From contig NZ_CAGY01000002.1 in assembly GCF_000308055.1 (NCBI RefSeq), positions 124,001 to 188,000 on the forward strand: 64,000 bases of DNA. Reading direction: 5' to 3'. Positions within the stretch are counted from its first letter, which is position 1. Each line of letters begins with the position of its first letter. This DNA is from Actinomyces sp. ph3 (GTDB taxonomy: Bacteria > Actinomycetota > Actinomycetes > Actinomycetales > Actinomycetaceae). Shown here one piece after another: positions 3,355 through 64,000 of this stretch. A program made the position numbers and the translations under genes. The notes under the pieces were generated by a model, which was given only the letters and a program-made list of their open reading frames with translations, was not told the DNA's origin and did no database searches.

Positions 3355-6300
3355 GTGGCGAAAGTTCTTCGTTACCCTGAAGGGGTGTCCACTTCATCGC
3401 AGCCGAGGCGCCGGCGCGCACATTCACGCAGGGGTCGCTCCCCTCATGCACCCGCGCCTTTCCGTCCTTTCACACCCGAACAGCTTGCTGCTCGGGCCGC
3501 TGCGATCCCACTGATTTCATTTCCCGATCTTCCGGTCAGCGCGAGGCGCGAGGAAATTGCGCAAGCCATTTCGCAGCACCAAGTTGTCATCATCTCCGGT
3601 GAAACCGGTTCGGGAAAGACCACGCAAATCCCAAAGATTTGCCTCCAATTAGGCCGAGGCGTGGCCGGCATGATCGGGCACACCCAGCCTCGCCGTATTG
3701 CAGCGCGTTCGGTTGCAGAGCGCATTGCTGCTGAACTTGGCCAAAAGGTGGGCAAAGAGCCCGGTGAGGTCGTCGGATACCAAGTGCGATTCACCGACGA
3801 GGTCGGTCCTACCACTTTGATCAAACTCATGACCGACGGTATTTTGCTGGCGGAAATTCAGTCTGACCCGATGCTGCGTCGCTATGACACCCTGATCATC
3901 GACGAGGCCCACGAGCGAAGCCTGAACATCGATTTCATCTTGGGCTACCTTGCGCGCCTGCTCCCCTTGCGCCCCGATCTCAAGGTCATCATCACTTCAG
4001 CGACCATTGATTCGGATCGTTTCGCGCGTCACTTCGGTCGATGGAACGGTCCAATTGGACAGGGCACGCATATTGAAGCCGCGCCGGTTATCGAGGTTTC
4101 GGGTCGTACTTTCCCGGTTGAAATCCGCTACCGTCCCCTTGCGGCCGATACCCCGACTTCCTATTCCTCCTCAAGCAGCTCCCCCGCTGCTCAGCCCACT
4201 GAAAGCAGCCCTGCCACGGCCTCGGCAATCGAGGAAGAAAGCACTGGAAGCGGCGTCGAACAACTGGTTTTAGAGGACCCGGATGATCCCCTTGCTCTGG
4301 AGGGCTACGGCGCGGGTCAAGACATCGATGTCGAAACCGCAATCTGCCATGCGGTCGATGAACTATGCAGCGAGGGCCCGGGGGATATTTTGGTATTCCT
4401 TCCCGGTGAGCGCGATATTCGCGACACCGAACAGGCATTGCGTGATCACCTGGGCAATCGTGCGCCCAAGGATATCTCGCACTCGAAGAACCCCGCAGAT
4501 ATCGAAATTTTGCCCCTATTTGCGCGCCTCAGCTCTGCGGAACAACACCGGATTTTTGAGGAACACAGCCATCGGCGCGTTGTTCTGGCGACAAACGTTG
4601 CTGAAACCTCACTGACGGTTCCGGGAATCCGCTACGTGATCGACCCGGGACTGGCGCGAATTTCCCGCTATTCCAATAAGACCAAGGTTCAGCGCCTCCC
4701 CATCGAAGAGATTTCAAAGGCCAGCGCGAATCAGCGTTCTGGGCGTTGCGGACGAGTTGCAGACGGTATCGCGATTCGCCTGTATTCCGCCGATAATTTC
4801 GCATCGAGGCCGGACTTCACCGAGCCGGAAATCTTGCGTACCTCGCTGGCCTCGGTCATTTTACAGATGAGCGCTTTAGGGCTGGGAGACGTTGCTTCTT
4901 TCCCATTCGTCGATGCGCCGGACTCACGAGCGATCCGCGATGGCATCAACCAGCTCATTGAAATTGGGGCACTGCGCCCGCTGGATTCGTCAAAGAACTC
5001 CGATTCTTCCGCGCTGGCACAGGGAAACCAGGGACTTGAGCTCACACGCATTGGTCGCGATTTAGCTCGGCTTCCTATCGATCCGCGCTTGGGCCGCATG
5101 CTGATCGCTGGGCATGAATCAGGATGCGCCTCGGAAATTTTAGTCATCGTTGCTGCGCTATCGATTCAGGATGTCCGCGAGCGCCCACTGGAACACCAAG
5201 AAGCTGCAGATACGGCACACGCGCGTTTTGCTGACCCTCACTCCGATTTCTTGACCTACCTCAATTTATGGCGCTACCTGCACGTCCAGCAGCGCGATCT
5301 TTCAGGTAGCGTGTTTAGACGTATGTGCCGGGCAGAATTCATTCACTACCTGCGTTTCCGCGAGTGGCGCGATATCGCCCACCAGCTGCGCGATATGGCC
5401 CGCAGCATCGGCATCAACACCGAGCCACTGGGGATGCCTTCAGCGGGTGATGTGGTTGAGCAGGCATCACGTACGGGAATTGCGGACGCCGCGGCGAAGG
5501 CTGCAGTTGCCTTCACGCGCTCAACCAGCGCGGTCGACACCGACGACATTCACCGTTCGATCCTTGTTGGCCTGCTCTCCAGCCTGGGCGCATGGGATCC
5601 GGCAACTCGCGACTATACGGGTAGCCGAGGCACTCACTTCACCATTTGGCCCGGTTCTGGGATCACTGGCCATCCCGATTGGGTGATGACCGCGGAATTG
5701 GTTGAGACCTCGCGACTCTTTGCACGTACGGTCGCCCGTATTCGCCCCGAATGGGTCGAGCCACTGGCAAAAGACCTACTCAATCACGTCTATTCCGAAC
5801 CCACGTGGAATTCCTCGCGGGGCGCGGCTTACGTCCAAGAAAAAGTCATGCTCTACGGGCTGACGTTGATCGCAGACCGCTCTGTGTTGCTGGGACGGCT
5901 GGGATCTACTCCCTTGGGATCAATCCGCGGCGCTGTTCCAACAGATTCTCCTTTTGCGATCGCCCAGCAAAGCCCCATTACCGCCGCCGAGCTCGCCCGT
6001 GAAATGTTCATCCGCCACGCGTTGGTTCAGGGACAGTGGCGCGAGCGTCACGCCTTCCAGCGTCGCAACGACGAGGCGATCGAGCGCGCAAGGGAAACCG
6101 AACGCCGCAGCCGCACCCACGGCCTCGTCGCCGATGAAATGGCGCTGGAGCGTTTCTTTGACGATCTCCTCCCCGCCTCGATCATCTCTGCCGGCCACTT
6201 TAATCGCTGGTGGAAGAACGAAAAGCGCCAGAATCCTCATCTTTTGGATTACCCTCCTGAGCTTCTTCTTCCTCGAGGCCTTGGGCAGACCGGAGAGGGC

Positions 6301-11991: not shown

Positions 11992-12756
11992 TCACTTGCA
12001 GAAAAGTGAGAGGTAGGCGCAAATGGCCTCGAAGGAGTGGTATGCGGCCTTCTCACCGTTCATGTGGAAGTCCTCGTCAGCACCTTCTCCCGTTAGATCC
12101 GAGATCGCACGCAGGCAGATCCAATCCACGCCGTTGGACCAGCACACCTGGGCCATGCCACAGGTTTCCATGTCAACAGCCAGCGCATCGGGGAAGCCTG
12201 CGCGGATACGGGCAACGACCTTTTCCGAGGCGAAGGAGTCGCCGGTGACGATGCGGCCGGTGCGCACGTGGTGCGGCTGGGCATCGTTGAGGCCAGCGAG
12301 CGCGTCGATCGCCCGCTGCGAGGAGTGGTAGTCGACGGGCATACGCGGAATCTGGCCGAGCTCGTAGCCGAAGACGGTGGCGTCGGCATCGTTGTAGATC
12401 GTGGCGATCGCGCCCGCGATGTCGCCCACTTGGATTCCGCCCTCAAGACCGCCCGCGGTACCACCCGCGATGACGATCTTCGGGGTGGCCAGGGTCAGGC
12501 CTCGGGCCACTGCTGCTGCCGCATTCGCAATGCCAACACCCGAGGTGATGACGACGACGGTGTGACCTTCGAGCTGGCCAAGGGCGTAGCTCTGCTGGTG
12601 ATGTCCGTCGGCGCCCACAACAAGGGTTTCAACCGCGTCAGAACCGGGAAGAGGCGCAAGAGCATCCAGGAAGGGCTGTGCCTCCATCACCATGGCGCAC
12701 TGAATGAAGGCGTCGACCTCGGGAAGCTGACGCGAAGGGGTCAAGGTCAGGGACAT
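11992..12756 (-). CDS. mtnN: 5'-methylthioadenosine / S-adenosylhomocysteine nucleosidase
   Basis: The 254-residue protein has the nucleoside phosphorylase-like fold of MTA/SAH nucleosidases: SGVGIANAAAA and GGTAGGL near the front, the substrate segment VDMETCGMAQV, and LRAISDLTGEG with the catalytic Asp. It hydrolyses SAH to adenine and S-ribosylhomocysteine and MTA to methylthioribose. It follows luxS by 45 bases with GAGAGG before the ATG, so the two consecutive steps of SAH recycling are encoded together. Confidence 0.9.
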   Translation of the reverse strand: MSLTLTPSRQLPEVDAFIQCAMVMEAQPFLDALAPLPGSDAVETLVVGADGHHQQSYALGQLEGHTVVVITSGVGIANAAAAVARGLTLATPKIVIAGGTAGGLEGGIQVGDIAGAIATIYNDADATVFGYELGQIPRMPVDYHSSQRAIDALAGLNDAQPHHVRTGRIVTGDSFASEKVVARIRAGFPDALAVDMETCGMAQVCWSNGVDWICLRAISDLTGEGADEDFHMNGEKAAYHSFEAICAYLSLFCK

Positions 12757-12801: not shown

Positions 12802-13284
12802 TTACTTGGCTGCCGCAGCGTCATCCTGGGTAACAACCAGCCACTTGTCGCGGTGATTCAGGAACTCGCGAACGGCTTCTTGAGCGCCTTCCAGGGAGTG
12901 GTTTGCACCCCAGCCACACTGAACCTCGTTTGCAGCAGGAACTTCGGTGGCATTGAGGATGTCTTCGAAAGTTGCCTGCAAGATGGGCAGGAATTCCTCA
13001 GTCTCAACGCCCAGGAGCAGGGCGTAGAAGCCGGTCTGGCAGCCCATGGGGCCGAAGTCGATGAGCTTATCGGTGTGGTTGCGCATCAGTTCAGCGCTGA
13101 GGTGCTCGATGGAGTGAACCGTGGGCATCTCAAGGTGTGCCTTATTGGGCTGGGTAAAACGGACGTCGTACTTGATCAGGACGTCGCCGCCGGGAAGAGT
13201 CTTCCGATCTGCGACGCGGACGTAAGGAGCAAGGACAGTGCGGTGGTCGAGGTTAAAGGACTCAACATTCATGCGTTCACTCAT
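12802..13284 (-). CDS. luxS: S-ribosylhomocysteine lyase (autoinducer-2 synthase)
   Basis: This 160-residue LuxS has the metal-binding HSIEHL motif (His57, His61), [11 protein letters not shown] with the catalytic cysteine, and a downstream CGWGANHS segment giving the third metal ligand. It splits S-ribosylhomocysteine into homocysteine and DPD, the precursor of AI-2. I chose the ATG at 13284 ([10 protein letters not shown]) because the homology starts there; the frame extends upstream without a credible start. TAAACT ends 7 bases before this ATG, suggesting a leaderless mRNA. Confidence 0.93.
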
Positions 13285-13297
13285 GAAACCCAGTTTA
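13285..13297 (-). promoter_or_regulatory. -10 box of a probable leaderless luxS promoter
   Basis: On the minus strand TAAACT (13297-13292) is followed by GGGTTTC and then the luxS ATG. No Shine-Dalgarno sequence is present. Confidence 0.5.
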
Positions 13298-13444
13298 TCG
13301 GGATTTAGATGGCGTGCTCGAGCGAGTCTCGGATGCCGCACGTTGTGTAGAACACCATCGTTGATGGGCTTTTCGCTAAAAACTCCGCTTCATTGCAGCG
13401 AAGCGAATGAGTGATCACGTCGTTCATCTCCAGTTATTTTCAGG

Positions 13445-53819: not shown

Positions 53820-54581
53820 CTAGGCGTGGAACTCGATACGCCGACCGGCCTCGTACATACCCCCAAGGCGCTGGCCACCCAAAGCGGGCTGGAAGGAAGC
53901 AATATCCGTCGTCGAGAAGGTCGTCAGCGAATTCATGCCATATTCGGCAAGCAAGGTCGCAGCGGGAGCCGAAGGGCCAACAATAATCGTCTGCGCACGT
54001 CGGGAAAGCTCAAGGAGACGCGGCATCGTCTTATTCACAAAGGCAGAGCCCGTAATGAAGACGTAGTCACAGGTGGGAAGAACATACTCTGCGGCGGTGT
54101 CTGGCAAATCTCCATCCAATACGTTGCGCTCAAAGATGAAGAGCTCAGATGCGGCAGAAAGGGCCGCAGCAGCGAAAGGGAAATGCCCAATAACAGCAAC
54201 GCGCTTGCCGGCAACCTCAGTCGACCAGGGGTCAAAAAGGTTCTGCCAGTTATTCACCTGGCAAGGAACAAAACCTGCAGCTTCGGCCCGCGAGGGAAGC
54301 GCATACCAAGAATTCACAGCAGCCATCCCCAGTGCGGCCTCGGCGAAATTCCAACTCTTCGCATAGGCGGCAACCTCGCGCAGACTCATGCCAGAGGGGT
54401 CGGCGGGAAGACGGCGAGCAATCGACTCAACGGGCATGTGGAAGGCCATTCCCGCGCCGGCCTCGGAATTCTCAATGAAAGCCCACTTACCAAAACGTCC
54501 GCTAGCCGTGACTTGCACGGCTGGGTCGATCTGGTCAATCAGCCGATCATAGATCTCCCACGGATTCCACAGGTCCAGCAT
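53820..54581 (-). CDS. DUF4213/DUF364 protein (putative heavy-metal chelation family)
   Basis: The 253-residue protein has an N-terminal DUF4213-like region (ending WNFAEAALGMAAVNSWYA) and a C-terminal DUF364 Rossmann-like region (VAVIGHFPF, VFITGSAFVNKTMPRLL, IIVGPSAPAATLLAEYGM). The family is annotated as putative heavy-metal chelators, often beside transporters or molybdenum genes; a role here is unknown. TGGAG is 5 bases before the ATG. It starts 11 bases after the rhomboid stop on the same strand. Confidence 0.82.
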   Translation of the reverse strand: MLDLWNPWEIYDRLIDQIDPAVQVTASGRFGKWAFIENSEAGAGMAFHMPVESIARRLPADPSGMSLREVAAYAKSWNFAEAALGMAAVNSWYALPSRAEAAGFVPCQVNNWQNLFDPWSTEVAGKRVAVIGHFPFAAAALSAASELFIFERNVLDGDLPDTAAEYVLPTCDYVFITGSAFVNKTMPRLLELSRRAQTIIVGPSAPAATLLAEYGMNSLTTFSTTDIASFQPALGGQRLGGMYEAGRRIEFHA

Positions 54582-58448: not shown

Positions 58449-59906
58449 ATGACCCATGCGCAAGTGCTTCTGCGGGCATACGCCCGCGCAACAAATATGT
58501 TGATCGCGGGACGACGTTTCGTCACTTCAGACCCTGAGCTCGCTTCTCTTCTTGAGGCCTTCGGCGCTCAGGTCACTCCCGAGCCCAGCGGGGAAGGTGC
58601 CACCGGCCTCGAGACAGTATTTGATCTCTCAGACCAAGCACGCCCCCACCCGGGTGCAATCACCGTCGTAGCGCCCTCCGGCACCTTCGAGGGCGTCTAC
58701 TCCCCCGACGGATCCCAAATTTCTGGGCCCGGGGACACCGAGCGCATTGCCTGGGCACGAATGCACATGCCCGTGACCGAGGCTGCGGTTCGCCGCATTG
58801 CCCACCTGCTCCCGAGCCGCCGCATCGGCCTCGCCCTAGTTTTGGAGCCCAAGACCGCTGCGCTTGCTTTGATGCTTTCCGAGGCCGGAGCCGAAGTTTC
58901 CGTTTTTGGGCACGCAAGTGAAACTCGCGATGACGTTGCCGACAAACTGCGCCGGGAGGGACTGAAGGTTTTCGCCGACTCCCAAGCAAGCCCCGAGCAG
59001 GAGGAAGTACTTGCCCGTGAGTTCCTTGCCGAAAACATCGAATATCTGTTGGACGACGGCTCTCATTTGATCCGCATGGCGCACGACCCCAAGCGCGCAC
59101 CGACAGCACTGTCAGCCATGATCGGTGCGGCCGAGGAAACAACGTCAGGCCTGCGCCCACTGCGTCATTTCCCCTTGAGCATCCCCGTGATTGCCAGCAA
59201 CGACGCGCGCTCAAAGACGCTCTTCGATAATGCCTACGGCACCGGCCAATCATGCTGGACAACTGTCCTTGACATCATTGACCCCGATGGCGTTGGCGCC
59301 CCAATTCCTGGGATGAAGGTCGGAATCATTGGCTATGGAGATGTCGGAAAGGGCTGCGCGCGCTTTGCTCGTGCCCTGGGGGCACGTGTCAGTGTCGTTG
59401 AGCTGGACCCCGTCCGCGCGCTCCAAGCACGCATGGATGGTTTCACCGTCGCTTCCCTCGGCGAGCTTGCCTCCACGGCGGGGCTTTTGATGTCCGCTAC
59501 GGGAGAGCCCTCGACCATTCCCCTCAGTGCGCTTGAAGCTCTTCCCGAAGACGCGATCGTCACTGTCGCGGGCGGCGTGGTCGGTGAAGTTGAGGTCGAG
59601 CAGGCGCTGGCCGCGGGGTGGACCCTGAGCGAGGCGGGCGACCCCCATGTGCAAAGACTGGCCGATCCGAAGGGTAAGTCCCTGCGTCTTCTGGAAAAGG
59701 GTGAAGGCATCAACTACACAGCCGGCGAAGGAAACCCCATCGAGATCATGGACATGAGTTTCGGGGTTCAGGTTGCCGCCCTCACCGAGCTACTGACTCA
59801 CGGAGACGAACTCGCACCCGGTCTCCATAACCTTCCCGTCCACGCTGATGATGCGGTATCTCGGGCTGCGCTTGATGCACTTCGTGGGACAGGCAATGCA
59901 CAATAG
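58449..59906 (+). CDS. Adenosylhomocysteinase-like protein with altered active site
   Basis: The 485-residue protein has the AHCY fold: EETTSGL, NDARSKTLFDNAYGTGQS (Lys256, Asp260) and the NAD loop GIIGYGDVGKGCA (292-304), ending EGNPIEIMDMSFGVQ. Against human AHCY, His55, Thr57 and Glu59 align with Val131, Glu133 and Lys135; His301 with Val377; His353 (GHP) with Asn429. The ~100 N-terminal residues are extra. It may use another substrate, such as deaminated SAH, or be regulatory. It is leaderless and lies four bases before the deaminase gene. The alignment is by eye. Confidence 0.8.
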   Translation: MTHAQVLLRAYARATNMLIAGRRFVTSDPELASLLEAFGAQVTPEPSGEGATGLETVFDLSDQARPHPGAITVVAPSGTFEGVYSPDGSQISGPGDTERIAWARMHMPVTEAAVRRIAHLLPSRRIGLALVLEPKTAALALMLSEAGAEVSVFGHASETRDDVADKLRREGLKVFADSQASPEQEEVLAREFLAENIEYLLDDGSHLIRMAHDPKRAPTALSAMIGAAEETTSGLRPLRHFPLSIPVIASNDARSKTLFDNAYGTGQSCWTTVLDIIDPDGVGAPIPGMKVGIIGYGDVGKGCARFARALGARVSVVELDPVRALQARMDGFTVASLGELASTAGLLMSATGEPSTIPLSALEALPEDAIVTVAGGVVGEVEVEQALAAGWTLSEAGDPHVQRLADPKGKSLRLLEKGEGINYTAGEGNPIEIMDMSFGVQVAALTELLTHGDELAPGLHNLPVHADDAVSRAALDALRGTGNAQ

Positions 59907-59910
59907 TTCT
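59899..59910 (+). promoter_or_regulatory. Possible internal leaderless promoter of the deaminase gene
   Basis: CACAAT (59899-59904), overlapping the end of the upstream gene, is followed by AGTTCT and directly by the ATG at 59911. Confidence 0.35.
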
Positions 59911-61287
59911 ATGACTTCGACGCTTTCCCAGGATGACGCAGAGATCCTCAGCCCACGCCCGCATTCCGACGTCGTCGAGGTCTACTCAGCTGGGCTCGTC
60001 ATTCCGATCACGGCCCCATCCGTCTTGGACGGTGCTATTGCGGTTTCCGGCGGGCGAATCGAGCACGTCGGTTCGCGCGATTGGGTGCTCCACGCACTGG
60101 AGCAAGCTGGACGTTCTTTCGTCGAGTACCACGTGGACGGGGTACTCATGCCGGGCCTCGTCAACGCACACACCCACCTGCAGTACACGGGAATGGCGGA
60201 AGTTGGGGCAAAGCGTTACACGGGTTTCCCTTCCTGGGCGCAGGCTTTCGACGCGGTTTACGACCATACCGAATTCGATTGGAAGGCCGAAGCCGAGCGG
60301 GGTGCTCGCCTTTCGATCCGTTACGGGACAACCAGCGCTGCCGACGTTGTCACCGACCCCGAGGCCGCGAGCGCACTCCACGACTTGGGCCTGCACGGCG
60401 TCGCCTACTGGGAAGTCATGGGGTGGTCGAACGAGGATTGGGCGGCTCGCGGTCCGGCAAGCGTCAACGCTTCCTTGGATGCGATGCCCACTCCCCCGCA
60501 AATCGGTATTTCCCCGCACGCCCCGTATTCCTTGGATGCGGAACCCCTTTTGGATCTTCCCGACCTCGCACGTCGGCGTAACCTCCGTCTGCACATCCAC
60601 TTGGGAGAGTCCCATTCCGAGGCCGAGTGGAAAGAAGGCCGGACCGCGCAGTTGGACGATTTGTGGCGCAGTGGAGCGTCGACCTCCTTCACAGAGATGC
60701 GTTCCTTGGGTGGGGGTTTCTCAGCAACACAATTCGTTGATCAACTGGGTGTCTTGGGGCCTGATTGTCATGTGGCACATGGCGTCTACATGACCGCGGA
60801 TGACCGACGTCGCCTACGTTCTCGCAATACTGCTGTTGCTTTGTGTCCGCGCTCGAATCGTGTCATCGGCTTGGATGCGCCTCCCGTTGCCGCCTACCTG
60901 AATGAGGGCAACTTGTTGGCCGTGGGCACGGACTCTCTGTCATCCTCACCCAGTTTGGATGTCATGGAGGACGTTGCGCTGCTTTATAGGATTGCGCGCG
61001 CTCAGGGATATTCGGAAAGCGATTTGGCTCGCCGTCTTCTGCATGCCGCAACCTTGGGCGGGGCCGTCGCATTGGGATTGTCGACGGGTTCTCAACGCGT
61101 GGGCCAGCTTCAGTCTGGCGCGGTCGCAGACATGGTGTTTTTCGATGTACCCGTAACGACAATCGTCGACACCATCGAAGAGCTCGTCCAAACCGGTGCT
61201 TCCCGCCAGATTGCGACGATTATTGACGGAAACTTTCGCTGGGTTGATCCGCGTTTCAGCGATATTTTTGAGGGAGAAGTGCAATGA
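59911..61287 (+). CDS. SAH/MTA deaminase-type amidohydrolase
   Basis: The 458-residue protein has the amidohydrolase metal motifs HTHL (His87, His89), HIHLGESHSE, HGVYM and GTDSLSSSPSLDV, and the SPHAPYSL segment found in 5'-methylthioadenosine/SAH deaminases such as Thermotoga Tm0936. It would convert SAH or a related adenosine to the inosine form. Its place four bases after the AHCY-like gene suggests a deaminate-then-hydrolyse route as described in methanogens. The ATG at 59911 has no ribosome binding site; an ATG at 59896 is the alternative. The stop overlaps the cupin gene. Confidence 0.85.
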   Translation: MTSTLSQDDAEILSPRPHSDVVEVYSAGLVIPITAPSVLDGAIAVSGGRIEHVGSRDWVLHALEQAGRSFVEYHVDGVLMPGLVNAHTHLQYTGMAEVGAKRYTGFPSWAQAFDAVYDHTEFDWKAEAERGARLSIRYGTTSAADVVTDPEAASALHDLGLHGVAYWEVMGWSNEDWAARGPASVNASLDAMPTPPQIGISPHAPYSLDAEPLLDLPDLARRRNLRLHIHLGESHSEAEWKEGRTAQLDDLWRSGASTSFTEMRSLGGGFSATQFVDQLGVLGPDCHVAHGVYMTADDRRRLRSRNTAVALCPRSNRVIGLDAPPVAAYLNEGNLLAVGTDSLSSSPSLDVMEDVALLYRIARAQGYSESDLARRLLHAATLGGAVALGLSTGSQRVGQLQSGAVADMVFFDVPVTTIVDTIEELVQTGASRQIATIIDGNFRWVDPRFSDIFEGEVQ

Positions 61288-61760
61288 CTACTCTCAGCCC
61301 ACTCGCTTCCACGCTTGTCAAGCAACTTGACCTTGCACCCCACCCCGAGGGCGGTCACTTCCGTCGAACCTGGACCGCACCCACGCATGTGGAAACCCCT
61401 CGCGGCCAGCGAGCCACGGCCTCGGCAATCCTCTTCGTGCTGGATCGCGACGAGGAGGCTGCTTGGCATCTGGTGCACTCCGATGAGCTGTGGATTTGGT
61501 CGGGCCCGGGCGCGCTTGAGATTCACCTCGGCGGAGATGACGATGCTCCAAGTTCCGAGCCGGAGATCGTCATCTTAGGCTCGCCGGCTGCTGAGGAAGA
61601 GGAACTCTCCCCTTCTGAGCCTTCGAACCCCGTGCAATTCCTTGTCCCCGCCGGTTCGTGGCAGCGTACCTTTGCTCGAGGCCAAGCGGCGCTGGCCACT
61701 TGCGTTGTCTCGCCCGAATTCTCTTTTGAGGATTGGAAATTGGCTTCGGCTGGTCAGTGA
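61284..61760 (+). CDS. Cupin-5 (DUF985) family protein
   Basis: The 158-residue protein has the DUF985 start LVKQLDLAPHPEGGHFRRTW, a cupin core with FVLDRDEEAAWHLVHSDELWIW and an acidic insert. DUF985 proteins are small jelly-roll cupins of unknown activity. The ATG overlaps the deaminase stop (ATGA), so it belongs to the AHCY-like/deaminase operon and may act on the same metabolites (inference). Confidence 0.87.
   Translation: MTTLSPLASTLVKQLDLAPHPEGGHFRRTWTAPTHVETPRGQRATASAILFVLDRDEEAAWHLVHSDELWIWSGPGALEIHLGGDDDAPSSEPEIVILGSPAAEEEELSPSEPSNPVQFLVPAGSWQRTFARGQAALATCVVSPEFSFEDWKLASAGQ
61414..61425 (+). repeat. Copy of the recurrent 12-mer CCACGGCCTCGG
   Basis: An exact copy inside the cupin gene, followed by CAATC; it shares 17 bases with the copies at 4.2 and 30.9 kb. 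Confidence 0.6.
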
Positions 61761-61936: not shown

Positions 61937-62236
61937 GTGGATCTGGAAAACCTGAAGAAGCAGGCCGAAGAAGGCTTTGAAGCTGCAAAGGATAAGGTCG
62001 GAGACGTCGTCGAGGCAGTTAAGGACAAGGTCGGAGACGTCGTCGAGGCAGTTAAGGACAAGGCCGAAGACGCGAAGGACAAGGCTGAAGACGCCGTCGA
62101 CGCAGCTAAGGACAAGGCCGAAGACGCGAAGGACAAGGCTGAAGACGCCGTCGACGCAGCTAAGGACAAGGCCGAAGACGCGAAGGACAAGGCTGAAGAC
62201 GCCGTCGAGGCAGCTAAGGACGAGCTTGGTAAGTGA
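61937..62236 (+). CDS. Small LEA-like protein made of tandem Lys/Glu/Ala repeats
   Basis: The 99-residue protein is almost all amphipathic repeats: two 11-residue VKDKVGDVVEA units then three 18-residue AKDKAEDAKDKAEDAVDA units. It resembles actinobacterial proteins annotated as antitoxin-like (MT0933 group) or LEA/stress proteins and should be a long soluble helix. AAGGAG is six bases before the GTG start. It is followed by a terminator and precedes an amino-acid importer. Confidence 0.75.
   Translation: MDLENLKKQAEEGFEAAKDKVGDVVEAVKDKVGDVVEAVKDKAEDAKDKAEDAVDAAKDKAEDAKDKAEDAVDAAKDKAEDAKDKAEDAVEAAKDELGK
61985..62212 (+). repeat. Tandem DNA repeats within the LEA-like gene
   Basis: Two 33-bp copies (61985-62050) are followed by three 54-bp copies (62051, 62105 and 62159) that differ only at a few bases, suggesting recent expansion. 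Confidence 0.85.
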
Positions 62237-62461: not shown

Positions 62462-63343
62462 GTGGTTCGTCCCAAGATCCGTTTCCGCAAGTCCGCACTC
62501 GTCGCAATCGCAGCAACTGCCGTCATGGCGCTGGGTGCATGCGCGGGCGGAACCACTTCCAGCAACACAACTTCCGCAACCGCCGATGCTAACGCAACCG
62601 GCGAAGCACTCCCCACCGTCACCAAGGGTAAGCTCACCATCGCCACCGGCGATCCCGCTTACACCCCTTGGGTTCTTAACGACGATCCGGCCTCCGGTGA
62701 AGGCTACGAGGCCGCAGTTGCCTACGCAGTCGCCGAGAAGCTGGGCTTCTCCAAGGATCAGGTCGTATGGAAGCGTACGACCTTCGATTCGGCAATCGCT
62801 CCTGGCGCAAAGGACTGGGACTTCAACATCCAGCAGTTCTCCATTACCGATGCTCGCAAGCAGGCAGTGGACTTCTCCAGCCCCTACTACACGACCTCCG
62901 AAGCAGTCGTCGCTGTGAAGGGTACCCCCGCTGCCGAGGCCAAGAGCCTCGAAGACCTGAAGAAGCTGAAGTTCGGCGTTCAGACCGGCACGACTTCTCA
63001 GAACTACGTGATGAACAAGCTCAAGCCCAGCACCGATCCGCTGATCTTCAACGGTTCCGCTGACGTGGTCCAGGCCCTCAAGGGCGGCCAGGTTGACGCA
63101 ATCGTCGTGGACCTGCCCACCGCATTCAACGTCATCGCAACCCAGGTTGAGAACGGCACCGTGGTTGGCCAGTTCACCGCGAACGAGGATGGCAACAACT
63201 TCGGTCTGCTGCTTCCTAAGGGAAGCGCCCTGACCCCCGCGGTCACCAAGGCAGTCGACACGCTGCGCGATAACGGCACCCTGGCCGAACTTCAGAAGAA
63301 GTGGCTGGCCGACGCCGCATCCGCTCCGATCTTCGAGCAGTGA
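62462..63343 (+). CDS. Amino-acid ABC transporter substrate-binding lipoprotein
   Basis: The 293-residue protein has a lipoprotein signal peptide ending ALGACAGG and a type 3 solute-binding fold (TIATGDPAYTPWVLN, GYEAAVAYAVAEKLG, QQFSITDARKQAVDFSSPYY, FGVQTGTTSQNYVM). It captures an amino acid outside the membrane and passes it to the permease encoded next. The GTG start follows AGGGAG by five bases. A hairpin separates it from the permease gene, likely giving more binding protein than permease. Confidence 0.92.
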   Translation: MVRPKIRFRKSALVAIAATAVMALGACAGGTTSSNTTSATADANATGEALPTVTKGKLTIATGDPAYTPWVLNDDPASGEGYEAAVAYAVAEKLGFSKDQVVWKRTTFDSAIAPGAKDWDFNIQQFSITDARKQAVDFSSPYYTTSEAVVAVKGTPAAEAKSLEDLKKLKFGVQTGTTSQNYVMNKLKPSTDPLIFNGSADVVQALKGGQVDAIVVDLPTAFNVIATQVENGTVVGQFTANEDGNNFGLLLPKGSALTPAVTKAVDTLRDNGTLAELQKKWLADAASAPIFEQ

Positions 63344-63386: not shown

Positions 63387-63439
63387 CATCCCCCTTGTCC
63401 TGATTGCTTCACGCATTCGAAACCCACGCAGAGGACCCC

Positions 63440-64000
63440 GTGCTCACCGATTCCCACTCAGCAGACCCAATGGCTGAATTCCCAGTCTCTGAGGTCGAGC
63501 GCCAGCGCCGTCGTTACCGGCGCGCACGCACCACTCGCTCACTCTTGATCTCCGCGATCTCCACTCTGATCATCGCGGCGCTCATCGTCGTTATCTTGGC
63601 CTCGTCTCCAGGCTGGAAGACAACCCAACAAACCTTCTTCAACTGGGAATACGCGAAGAGCTCCTTCCCCGCAGTCCTCTCTGGCATGTGGCTTAACATC
63701 CGCATGCTGCTGGTTGCAGCAACGGGCGTTGCGATTTTTGCAACCCTCCTTGCTGCAGCACGTACCTTGGGCGGACCGGTATTCTTCCCGATCCGTTTCC
63801 TTGCTGCCGCATACACGGACATCTTCCGAGGCGTGCCCTTCATTGTGGTCCTGTACATCATCGGTTTCGGTATTCCAGCTTTGAATCCCTCCCGGCGCAT
63901 CGATGTGACGCTCCTGGGGACCATCGCCCTGGTCATCACCTACACCTCCTACGTTTCCGAGGTTCTGCGTGCTGGCCTCGAATCGATCCACCCCTCACAG
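63440..64000 (+). CDS. Amino-acid ABC transporter permease, cut by the right edge
   Basis: The frame is open from a GTG at 63440 (AGAGGA 4 bases upstream; an ATG 30 bases later is possible) to the window end, giving 187 residues. It has membrane helices and the His/Glu/Arg-Q permease pattern: NWEYAKSSFPAVLSGMWLNI, TDIFRGVPFIVVLYIIGFG and the EAA loop EVLRAGLESIHPSQ at the cut end. It is the partner of the preceding binding protein; the ATPase gene would be expected further right. Confidence 0.9.
   Translation, partial: MLTDSHSADPMAEFPVSEVERQRRRYRRARTTRSLLISAISTLIIAALIVVILASSPGWKTTQQTFFNWEYAKSSFPAVLSGMWLNIRMLLVAATGVAIFATLLAAARTLGGPVFFPIRFLAAAYTDIFRGVPFIVVLYIIGFGIPALNPSRRIDVTLLGTIALVITYTSYVSEVLRAGLESIHPSQ

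Follow-up and report, generated by a model that had tools for sequence, protein, structure and literature searches.

We analysed a 64,000-nucleotide stretch of the Actinomyces sp. ph3 genome (contig NZ_CAGY01000002.1, positions 124,001 to 188,000; hereafter the window) and observed that it carries a gene for a relative of S-adenosylhomocysteine (SAH) hydrolase (SAHH) in which the residues corresponding to human His55, His301 and His353 are all replaced. The gene belongs to a distinct histidine-less clade and precedes genes for a deaminase-type amidohydrolase, a cupin and an ATP-binding cassette (ABC) importer (Table 1). Since the SAHH fold, the oxidation residues and the Glu-x-Lys (ExK) nucleobase pair are retained, the deaminase-type partner is present in 67/67 loci and an importer is usual, we tentatively propose, with slightly less than even confidence, that the operon is a scavenging pathway in which the histidine-less SAHH paralogue cleaves a salvaged, deaminated nucleoside with altered 5′ chemistry. 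The His55/His301 pair and the GHF gate count as conserved, textbook features of SAHH. By losing both while keeping the residues for the first half of the reaction, this conserved, operon-borne clade separates the two halves of the SAHH mechanism, so that their roles become testable.

To place the replaced residues, we aligned the protein with the SAHHs of T. maritima and P. furiosus and with 61 gathered proteins. This put Val131 at His55, Gly376 at His301 and Asn429 at His353. A preliminary description of this DNA, made from the sequence alone, had assigned the first and third correctly and had matched His301 to Val377. The latter was off by one, as 'AGGV' aligns ungapped with 'AGHF', so that His301 corresponds to Gly376 and Phe302 to Val377. 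Histidines at shifted positions, an outcome that the description had named as fatal to its claim, turned up neither in local alignments nor when the protein was compared with canonical ones, part of them from the same genomes. In a family alignment of 88 rows, which is redundant and includes some genomes twice, site 131 (the general-base position) is Val in 81 rows, Phe in 6 and a gap in 1, site 376 (the His of the GHF gate) is Gly in 88/88, and site 429 is Asn in 86 with 2 gaps; His occurs at the three sites in 0/88 rows. The pattern persists after clustering at 90%. Of 89 rows, 58 satisfied a filter on start motif and length, and clustering reduced these to 36: Val in 32 and Phe in 4 at site 131, Gly in 36 at site 376, and Asn in 35 with one gap at site 429.

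The oxidation residues are kept. The equivalents of Asp131, Glu156, Lys186, Asp190 and Asn191 are D203, E229, K256, D260 and N261, and all five are invariant in the ungapped rows of the 88-row alignment (D203 in 87 rows with one gap; K256, D260 and N261 in 88/88). The GYGDVGKG loop for NAD is likewise retained, as the preliminary description had stated together with Lys256 and Asp260. Site 206 is His in 84 rows, Arg in 3 (Nocardia) and a gap in 1, and the nucleobase pair E133/K135 is present in 87/87 ungapped rows. The family scan used the patterns LDDGSHLI and RSKTLFDN, so H206, K256, D260 and N261 were partly preselected; V131, E133, K135, G376 and N429 were not.

According to PMC4647836, His55 serves as general base in the addition of water, Asp131 gives the proton to C4′, His301 stabilises the intermediate and Lys186 contacts the C3′ oxygen. 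Given these roles, the clade appears to retain the C3′/C4′ machinery and to drop the C5′ water-handling pair His55/His301. In mouse SAHH, according to the same source, His353 touches adenine via the main chain only, so the change to N429 may matter little. The preliminary description had also counted Thr57 → Glu133 and Glu59 → Lys135 as losses. These differences from the human enzyme are real; they are not losses, since PMC10978960 gives HxExK as the normal motif in enzymes such as those of T. maritima, P. furiosus and M. maripaludis. The same paper reports that HxExK homologues prefer S-inosylhomocysteine (SIH) and that the Lys can bond O6 of inosine. The base pocket therefore looks tuned to hypoxanthine, in keeping with the deaminase partner, and from the ExK pair a deaminated base of the hypoxanthine type is expected. 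This supports the methanogen-type route, deamination before cleavage, that had first been suggested for this locus.

Table 1 Features of the SAHH-like locus and related genes (window coordinates).
Feature	Position	Strand	Basis or remark
SAHH-like gene, histidine-less clade	58449..59906	+	485 codons plus stop; Pfam, NCBIfam, alignment, tree, fold match
N-terminal extension (residues 1-94), a probable second NAD/Rossmann domain of SAHH type, eroded	58449..58730	+	hhalign, AlphaFold2 (AF2)
V131-L-E133-P-K135: HxExK signature of SIH-preferring enzymes, His -> Val	58839..58853	+	alignment
D202-D203-G-S-H206: catalytic Asp131 equivalent retained; H206 family-typical, Arg in Nocardia	59052..59066	+	88-row alignment
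K256, D260, N261: 3′-oxidation residues retained	59214..59231	+	88-row alignment
G375-G376-V377, replacing GHF gate	59571..59579	+	alignment
N429, replacing His353	59733..59735	+	alignment
Amidohydrolase, deaminase of 5′-substituted adenosine type	59911..61287	+	Pfam, fold
DUF985 cupin	61284..61760	+	PF06172 (Cupin_5) 9.5e-32
Substrate-binding lipoprotein, SBP_bac_3, polar amino acid type	62462..63343	+	1.6e-23
ABC permease, cut by window end, gene to about 64318	63404..64000	+	BPD_transp_1 4.4e-21
ATPase gene beyond window, after permease	about 64318-65100		ABC_tran 3.2e-33
Methylthioadenosine (MTA)/SAH nucleosidase (PNP_UDP_1)	11992-12756	-	window
LuxS, adjoining MTA/SAH nucleosidase	12802-13341	-	window

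Family searches and modelling agree on an SAHH fold with substrate and NAD domains. Pfam returned AdoHcyase_NAD (3.5e-28) and AdoHcyase (6e-12). The protein passes the cut-off of NF004005 (297.4 bits against 275) and fails those of TIGR00936 (262.1 against 497.6) and NF004009 (261.8 against 485). Automatic naming via NF004005 can thus call such proteins adenosylhomocysteinase, with the result that the methyl cycle would be mis-drawn in carriers. Modelling, a check proposed in the preliminary description, gave an AF2 model (pLDDT 88.9, pTM 0.87) that is predicted to adopt this fold, and the best solved-fold match is an HxExK enzyme. Canonical adenosylhomocysteinases (HxTxE/Q) share the fold, the NAD loop and the Asp131/Glu156/Lys186/Asp190/Asn191 equivalents, whereas the base motif and all three histidines differ; both kinds occur in one genome. 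The HxExK SAHH/SIH hydrolases of M. jannaschii, M. maripaludis (7R3A), P. furiosus (7R37) and T. maritima have ExK in common with the protein studied here. The present clade differs from them by His → Val (or Phe), GHF → GG(V) and GHP → GNP, by its separate position, by an extra N-terminal domain and by an operon with an importer. In the host genome (1.86 Mb) this gene is the one AdoHcyase family match. Pairwise dN/dS against five relatives is 0.12-0.14 for the whole gene, 0.08-0.125 for the core and 0.17-0.31 for the extension; the whole-gene values and the invariance of the retained residues exclude a decaying pseudogene in the host genome.

The solved-fold match begins at residue 95, so the extension, put at about 100 residues in the preliminary description, measures 94. 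Its reported resemblance to an NAD-domain entry was borne out by hhalign in comparisons with NAD domains and upstream bacterial proteins or domains. The extension (31 rows) matched a set of four upstream proteins or domains (two from Nocardia, one from genome G558 and the fused N-terminus of G612) at 95.9% and the SAHH NAD domain at 84.7%, and the four-row set matched the SAHH NAD domain at 92.7%, values that rest on small alignments. In Nocardia and G558, separate proteins of 271-289 aa are encoded directly upstream of the SAHH-like gene, and the Nocardia protein gives a weak Pfam AdoHcyase_NAD match (E 0.0022, below cut-off). The AF2 model shows the extension as a small alpha/beta unit, with mean pLDDT of 75-90 for ten-residue blocks over residues 1-100. 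The extension is probably an eroded second NAD-type domain that was fused and shrank in the host's lineage.

Next, we determined the distribution of the clade. Among 213 genomes of the host's family, strong matches (E 5.9e-63 or better) were found in 23 of the 35 same-genus genomes, with a fragment in G143, and a family match in 1 of the 178 others, the remainder being weak or absent. The histidine-less family, whose co-occurrence the preliminary description had proposed to check within Actinomycetaceae, is much wider than that group: a contig scan yielded 72 loci in Schaalia/Actinomyces, Propionibacteriaceae, Rarobacter, Microbacteriaceae and Nocardia. A pattern-free search of 394 class genomes with a Nocardia query gave 434 bits for G558, 330 for G612 and 324 for the host genome. 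These are the only ones above 300 bits among the matches listed, the next scoring at most 285. The 27 next-best matches (L160-L186), read residue by residue, all retain the three histidines; L189 (G604) was assessed by its tblastn match only. In a 40-row tree, the 22 histidine-less rows cluster together (support 100/100) on a stem of 1.1 changes per site, separate from the P. furiosus (Pfu), T. maritima (Tma), M. maripaludis (Mma), Sac and canonical actinobacterial enzymes. The clade suggests that oral Schaalia, Microbacteriaceae and Nocardia have a pathway for scavenging nucleosides; our literature searches returned no paper whose title or abstract start describes the operon or the clade.

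Several loci stood out during this survey. The single family match outside the genus (G184, locus L048, from a different genus) has the whole gene set in order, with the SAHH-like, deaminase and permease matches each split into pieces by decay or poor sequence. G143 holds only the first ~65 codons of the SAHH-like gene (L049 9080-9274), near a conserved HAD hydrolase gene; neither the deaminase nor the cupin had a match at that locus, which looks like a remnant of operon loss. Three records titled Trueperella pyogenes, Xylanimonas and Sanguibacter (L054, L055 and L056), which look misnamed, carry SAHH-like genes 71-89% identical to the host's.

In the window, 4 bases separate the end of the SAHH-like frame (59906) from the deaminase ATG (59911), and the deaminase stop is overlapped by the start of the cupin gene (ATG at 61284), exactly as first described. 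On the extended locus (L154) the permease and ATPase genes lie at 3405-4319 and 4319-5101. We counted partners in the 67 of 72 loci with more than 5.5 kb downstream (L076, L087, L093, L096 and L121 were dropped as short); these include close relatives and hence are not independent. A deaminase-type amidohydrolase lies downstream in 67/67, directly adjacent in 64 and ~3 kb away in the three Nocardia loci, and in Rarobacter the two enzymes form a single 1086-aa open reading frame (ORF; L156 7398-10658). The pairing noted in the preliminary description is thus near-universal. The cupin is present in 61/67, the substrate-binding protein (SBP) in 59/67, the permease in 57/67 and the ATPase in 58/67 (three being energy-coupling factor (ECF) ATPases of Nocardia); all six genes occur in 53/67, and G612 has all six in order. 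In L075 the importer genes are just upstream on the opposite strand. In Nocardia, an ECF ATPase, S component and T component lie between the two enzymes, and the S component matches a riboflavin-type family. In G558 the deaminase directly follows the SAHH-like gene, then comes a luciferase-like monooxygenase gene, with a divergent inosine-uridine hydrolase gene beyond. Rfam gave no match above gathering in the window, L154, L058, L065 or L082, and eight more loci yielded three tRNAs only and no riboswitch.

The deaminase (Amidohydro_1, 1.4e-32) has the amidohydrolase fold and the HxH...HxxE...H...D pattern, which we take to be the metal-ligand pattern of MTA/SAH deaminase-type amidohydrolases; both are common to the MTA/SAH/aminofutalosine deaminases 4DZH, 4DYK, 4F0S, 7LKJ, DR_0824 (2IMR) and TM0936. 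The protein scores 44 bits against the PRK15493 (NF012037) cut-off of 779, reaches the cut-off in none of the 25 NCBIfam families among the matches listed, and is 18-23% identical to its five best fold matches. The importer genes encode SBP_bac_3, BPD_transp_1 and ABC_tran proteins in order. In the SBP, R132 and D217 were located by alignment with AncQR; at least 97% of the 64 proteins aligned keep each of them, and the two presumably bind amino-acid ligands by their carboxylate and amino group. Taken together, what the preliminary description had observed was partly confirmed, and its interpretation was partly supported.

Under the scavenging reading, the substrate would be a 5′-substituted adenosine with an alpha-amino-acid tail (SAH- or SAM-like, SAM being S-adenosylmethionine), taken up by the ABC importer. 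The amidohydrolase, judging from its family and fold, would turn adenine to hypoxanthine. The bound NAD of the SAHH paralogue would then oxidise C3′ (Lys256/Asp260/Glu229), Asp203 would take the C4′ proton, the 5′ substituent would be expelled, and the amino acid and purine nucleoside would be salvaged. This reaction and SAH hydrolysis should differ in the 5′ half because His55 and His301, which hold and activate the 5′ water, are Val and Gly. Either the leaving group would be better (deaminated SAM with its sulfonium is an example), or hydration would be slow, unneeded or done by another group. The first option leads to a bolder idea that we consider a long shot: a new enzyme class on the SAHH scaffold, in which a deaminated sulfonium (e.g. 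S-inosylmethionine from scavenged SAM) or similar nucleoside would be oxidised at C3′ and its 5′ group eliminated without the His55/His301 pair or acid/base help, freeing methionine or another amino acid. If true, this would be a new route for extracellular SAM or SAH scavenging in Actinomycetes. The DadD plus SIH hydrolase route of SAM recycling in methanogens shares the order of deamination and then cleavage by an SAHH homologue; the present system differs in usually lying beside LuxS or another SAHH, in its own importer and in its histidine-less hydrolase homologue.

Several observations weigh against the scavenging reading. Compared with 15 canonical rows (obtained by clustering 33), the clade differs at sites such as R104, R209, S233, R236, D275 and R323, and no clear compensating His, Cys or acid specific to the clade was found among the family-specific sites. 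As His55 acts as the general base and His301 stabilises the intermediate according to PMC4647836, loss of both could mean an inactive protein. A polar-amino-acid importer was not found in L061, L063, L069, Rarobacter L070 and the three Nocardia loci, so the importer may be unrelated to the substrate, and its ligand cannot be named from SBP similarity. The cupin is without an assigned role. The best solved-sequence match of the deaminase is DR_0824, which we take to be an aminofutalosine deaminase, not an SAH deaminase; we therefore considered the aminofutalosine (menaquinone) pathway as an alternative context. Finally, in one of 23 carriers outside the genus (G225) neither LuxS nor a second SAHH was found, and there the SAHH-like protein might be the sole SAH route.

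Elsewhere, other SAH routes are common. The MTA/SAH nucleosidase and LuxS genes in the same window leave the SAHH-like protein unsupported as the organism's main SAH-disposal enzyme. LuxS is present in 34/35 genus genomes and the nucleosidase above cut-off in 33/35. The survey outside the genus covered 23 of 25 genomes, L060 and L062 being left out as members of the window's genus; 10 have LuxS and 12 a canonical-type SAHH by score (8 residue-confirmed), with both in G229. G234 is without either, but encodes an SAHH of the HxExK type with its His, next to IunH, adenosine deaminase and PNP-family genes. Since most carriers have LuxS or another SAHH, the SAHH-like protein is unneeded for SAH in most of them.

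We also weighed an ordinary SIH hydrolase, which we regard as rather unlikely: SAH would be imported, deaminated to SIH and hydrolysed to inosine and homocysteine, the histidines being dispensable or replaced, e.g. by His206, Arg209 or a water chain. The ExK signature and the deaminase partner fit this route (PMC10978960), as do the HxExK fold match, the near-invariant H206 beside Asp203 and the nucleoside hydrolase near the G558 locus. However, the aligned reference SIH/SAH hydrolases all retain the three histidines, and Nocardia has Arg at site 206. G612 and G234 hold a His-containing HxExK homologue besides the histidine-less one, which suggests different jobs, although these additional homologues are unusual too, with Asn in place of Asp131 and Glu in place of Asp190. 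Improbable, in our view, is a catalytically dead pseudoenzyme that would serve as an NAD- and nucleoside-binding sensor, or would belong to the deaminase or transporter as a subunit with a regulatory or structural role. The loss of His55 and His301, the added N-terminal domain and the single ORF with the deaminase in Rarobacter recall AHCYL1/IRBIT, and PMC12955632 describes AHCYL1/2 as paralogues of AHCY that have an N-terminal domain, carry substitutions at catalytic residues and are inactive on SAH. Against this, Asp203, Glu229, Lys256, Asp260 and Asn261 are invariant in ungapped rows, distant Nocardia included, core dN/dS is low, a pure binder would not need all the retained residues, and the operon looks catabolic. 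AHCYL1 and AHCYL2 (the IRBIT family) are animal signalling proteins, whereas the present gene lies in a bacterial operon with metabolic genes; its extension, compared with NAD domains and upstream bacterial proteins or domains, relates to an NAD domain. Redox without 5′ cleavage, in which a 3′-keto nucleoside would lose its base from C1′ or be epimerised at C4′ and the cupin would handle the keto sugar, matches the split into retained C3′/C4′ and lost C5′ residues and the frequency of the cupin, but is highly improbable given no precedent in the parts of the SAHH literature examined, no residue shown to serve C2′, and no cupin detected in the three Nocardia loci, L063, L109 and L110.

A second unusual SAHH clade was seen at L155 4674-5852, L191 7483-8658 and L190 8302-9510; it has HxExK with the His, while Asp131 is replaced by Asn and Asp190 by Glu. 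Beside L155 lie genes for IunH, adenosine deaminase, pyrimidine phosphorylase, a PNP-family protein and a regulator of the IclR type, and beside L190 those for a PfkB-type kinase and IunH; such neighbours were not noted for L191. In the window itself, a short repetitive ORF (KDKAEDAKDKAEDAVDA repeats) lies at 61937-62236 between the cupin and SBP genes, and a DUF4213/DUF364 putative heavy-metal chelation protein is encoded a few kb upstream of the operon on the minus strand (53820-54581).

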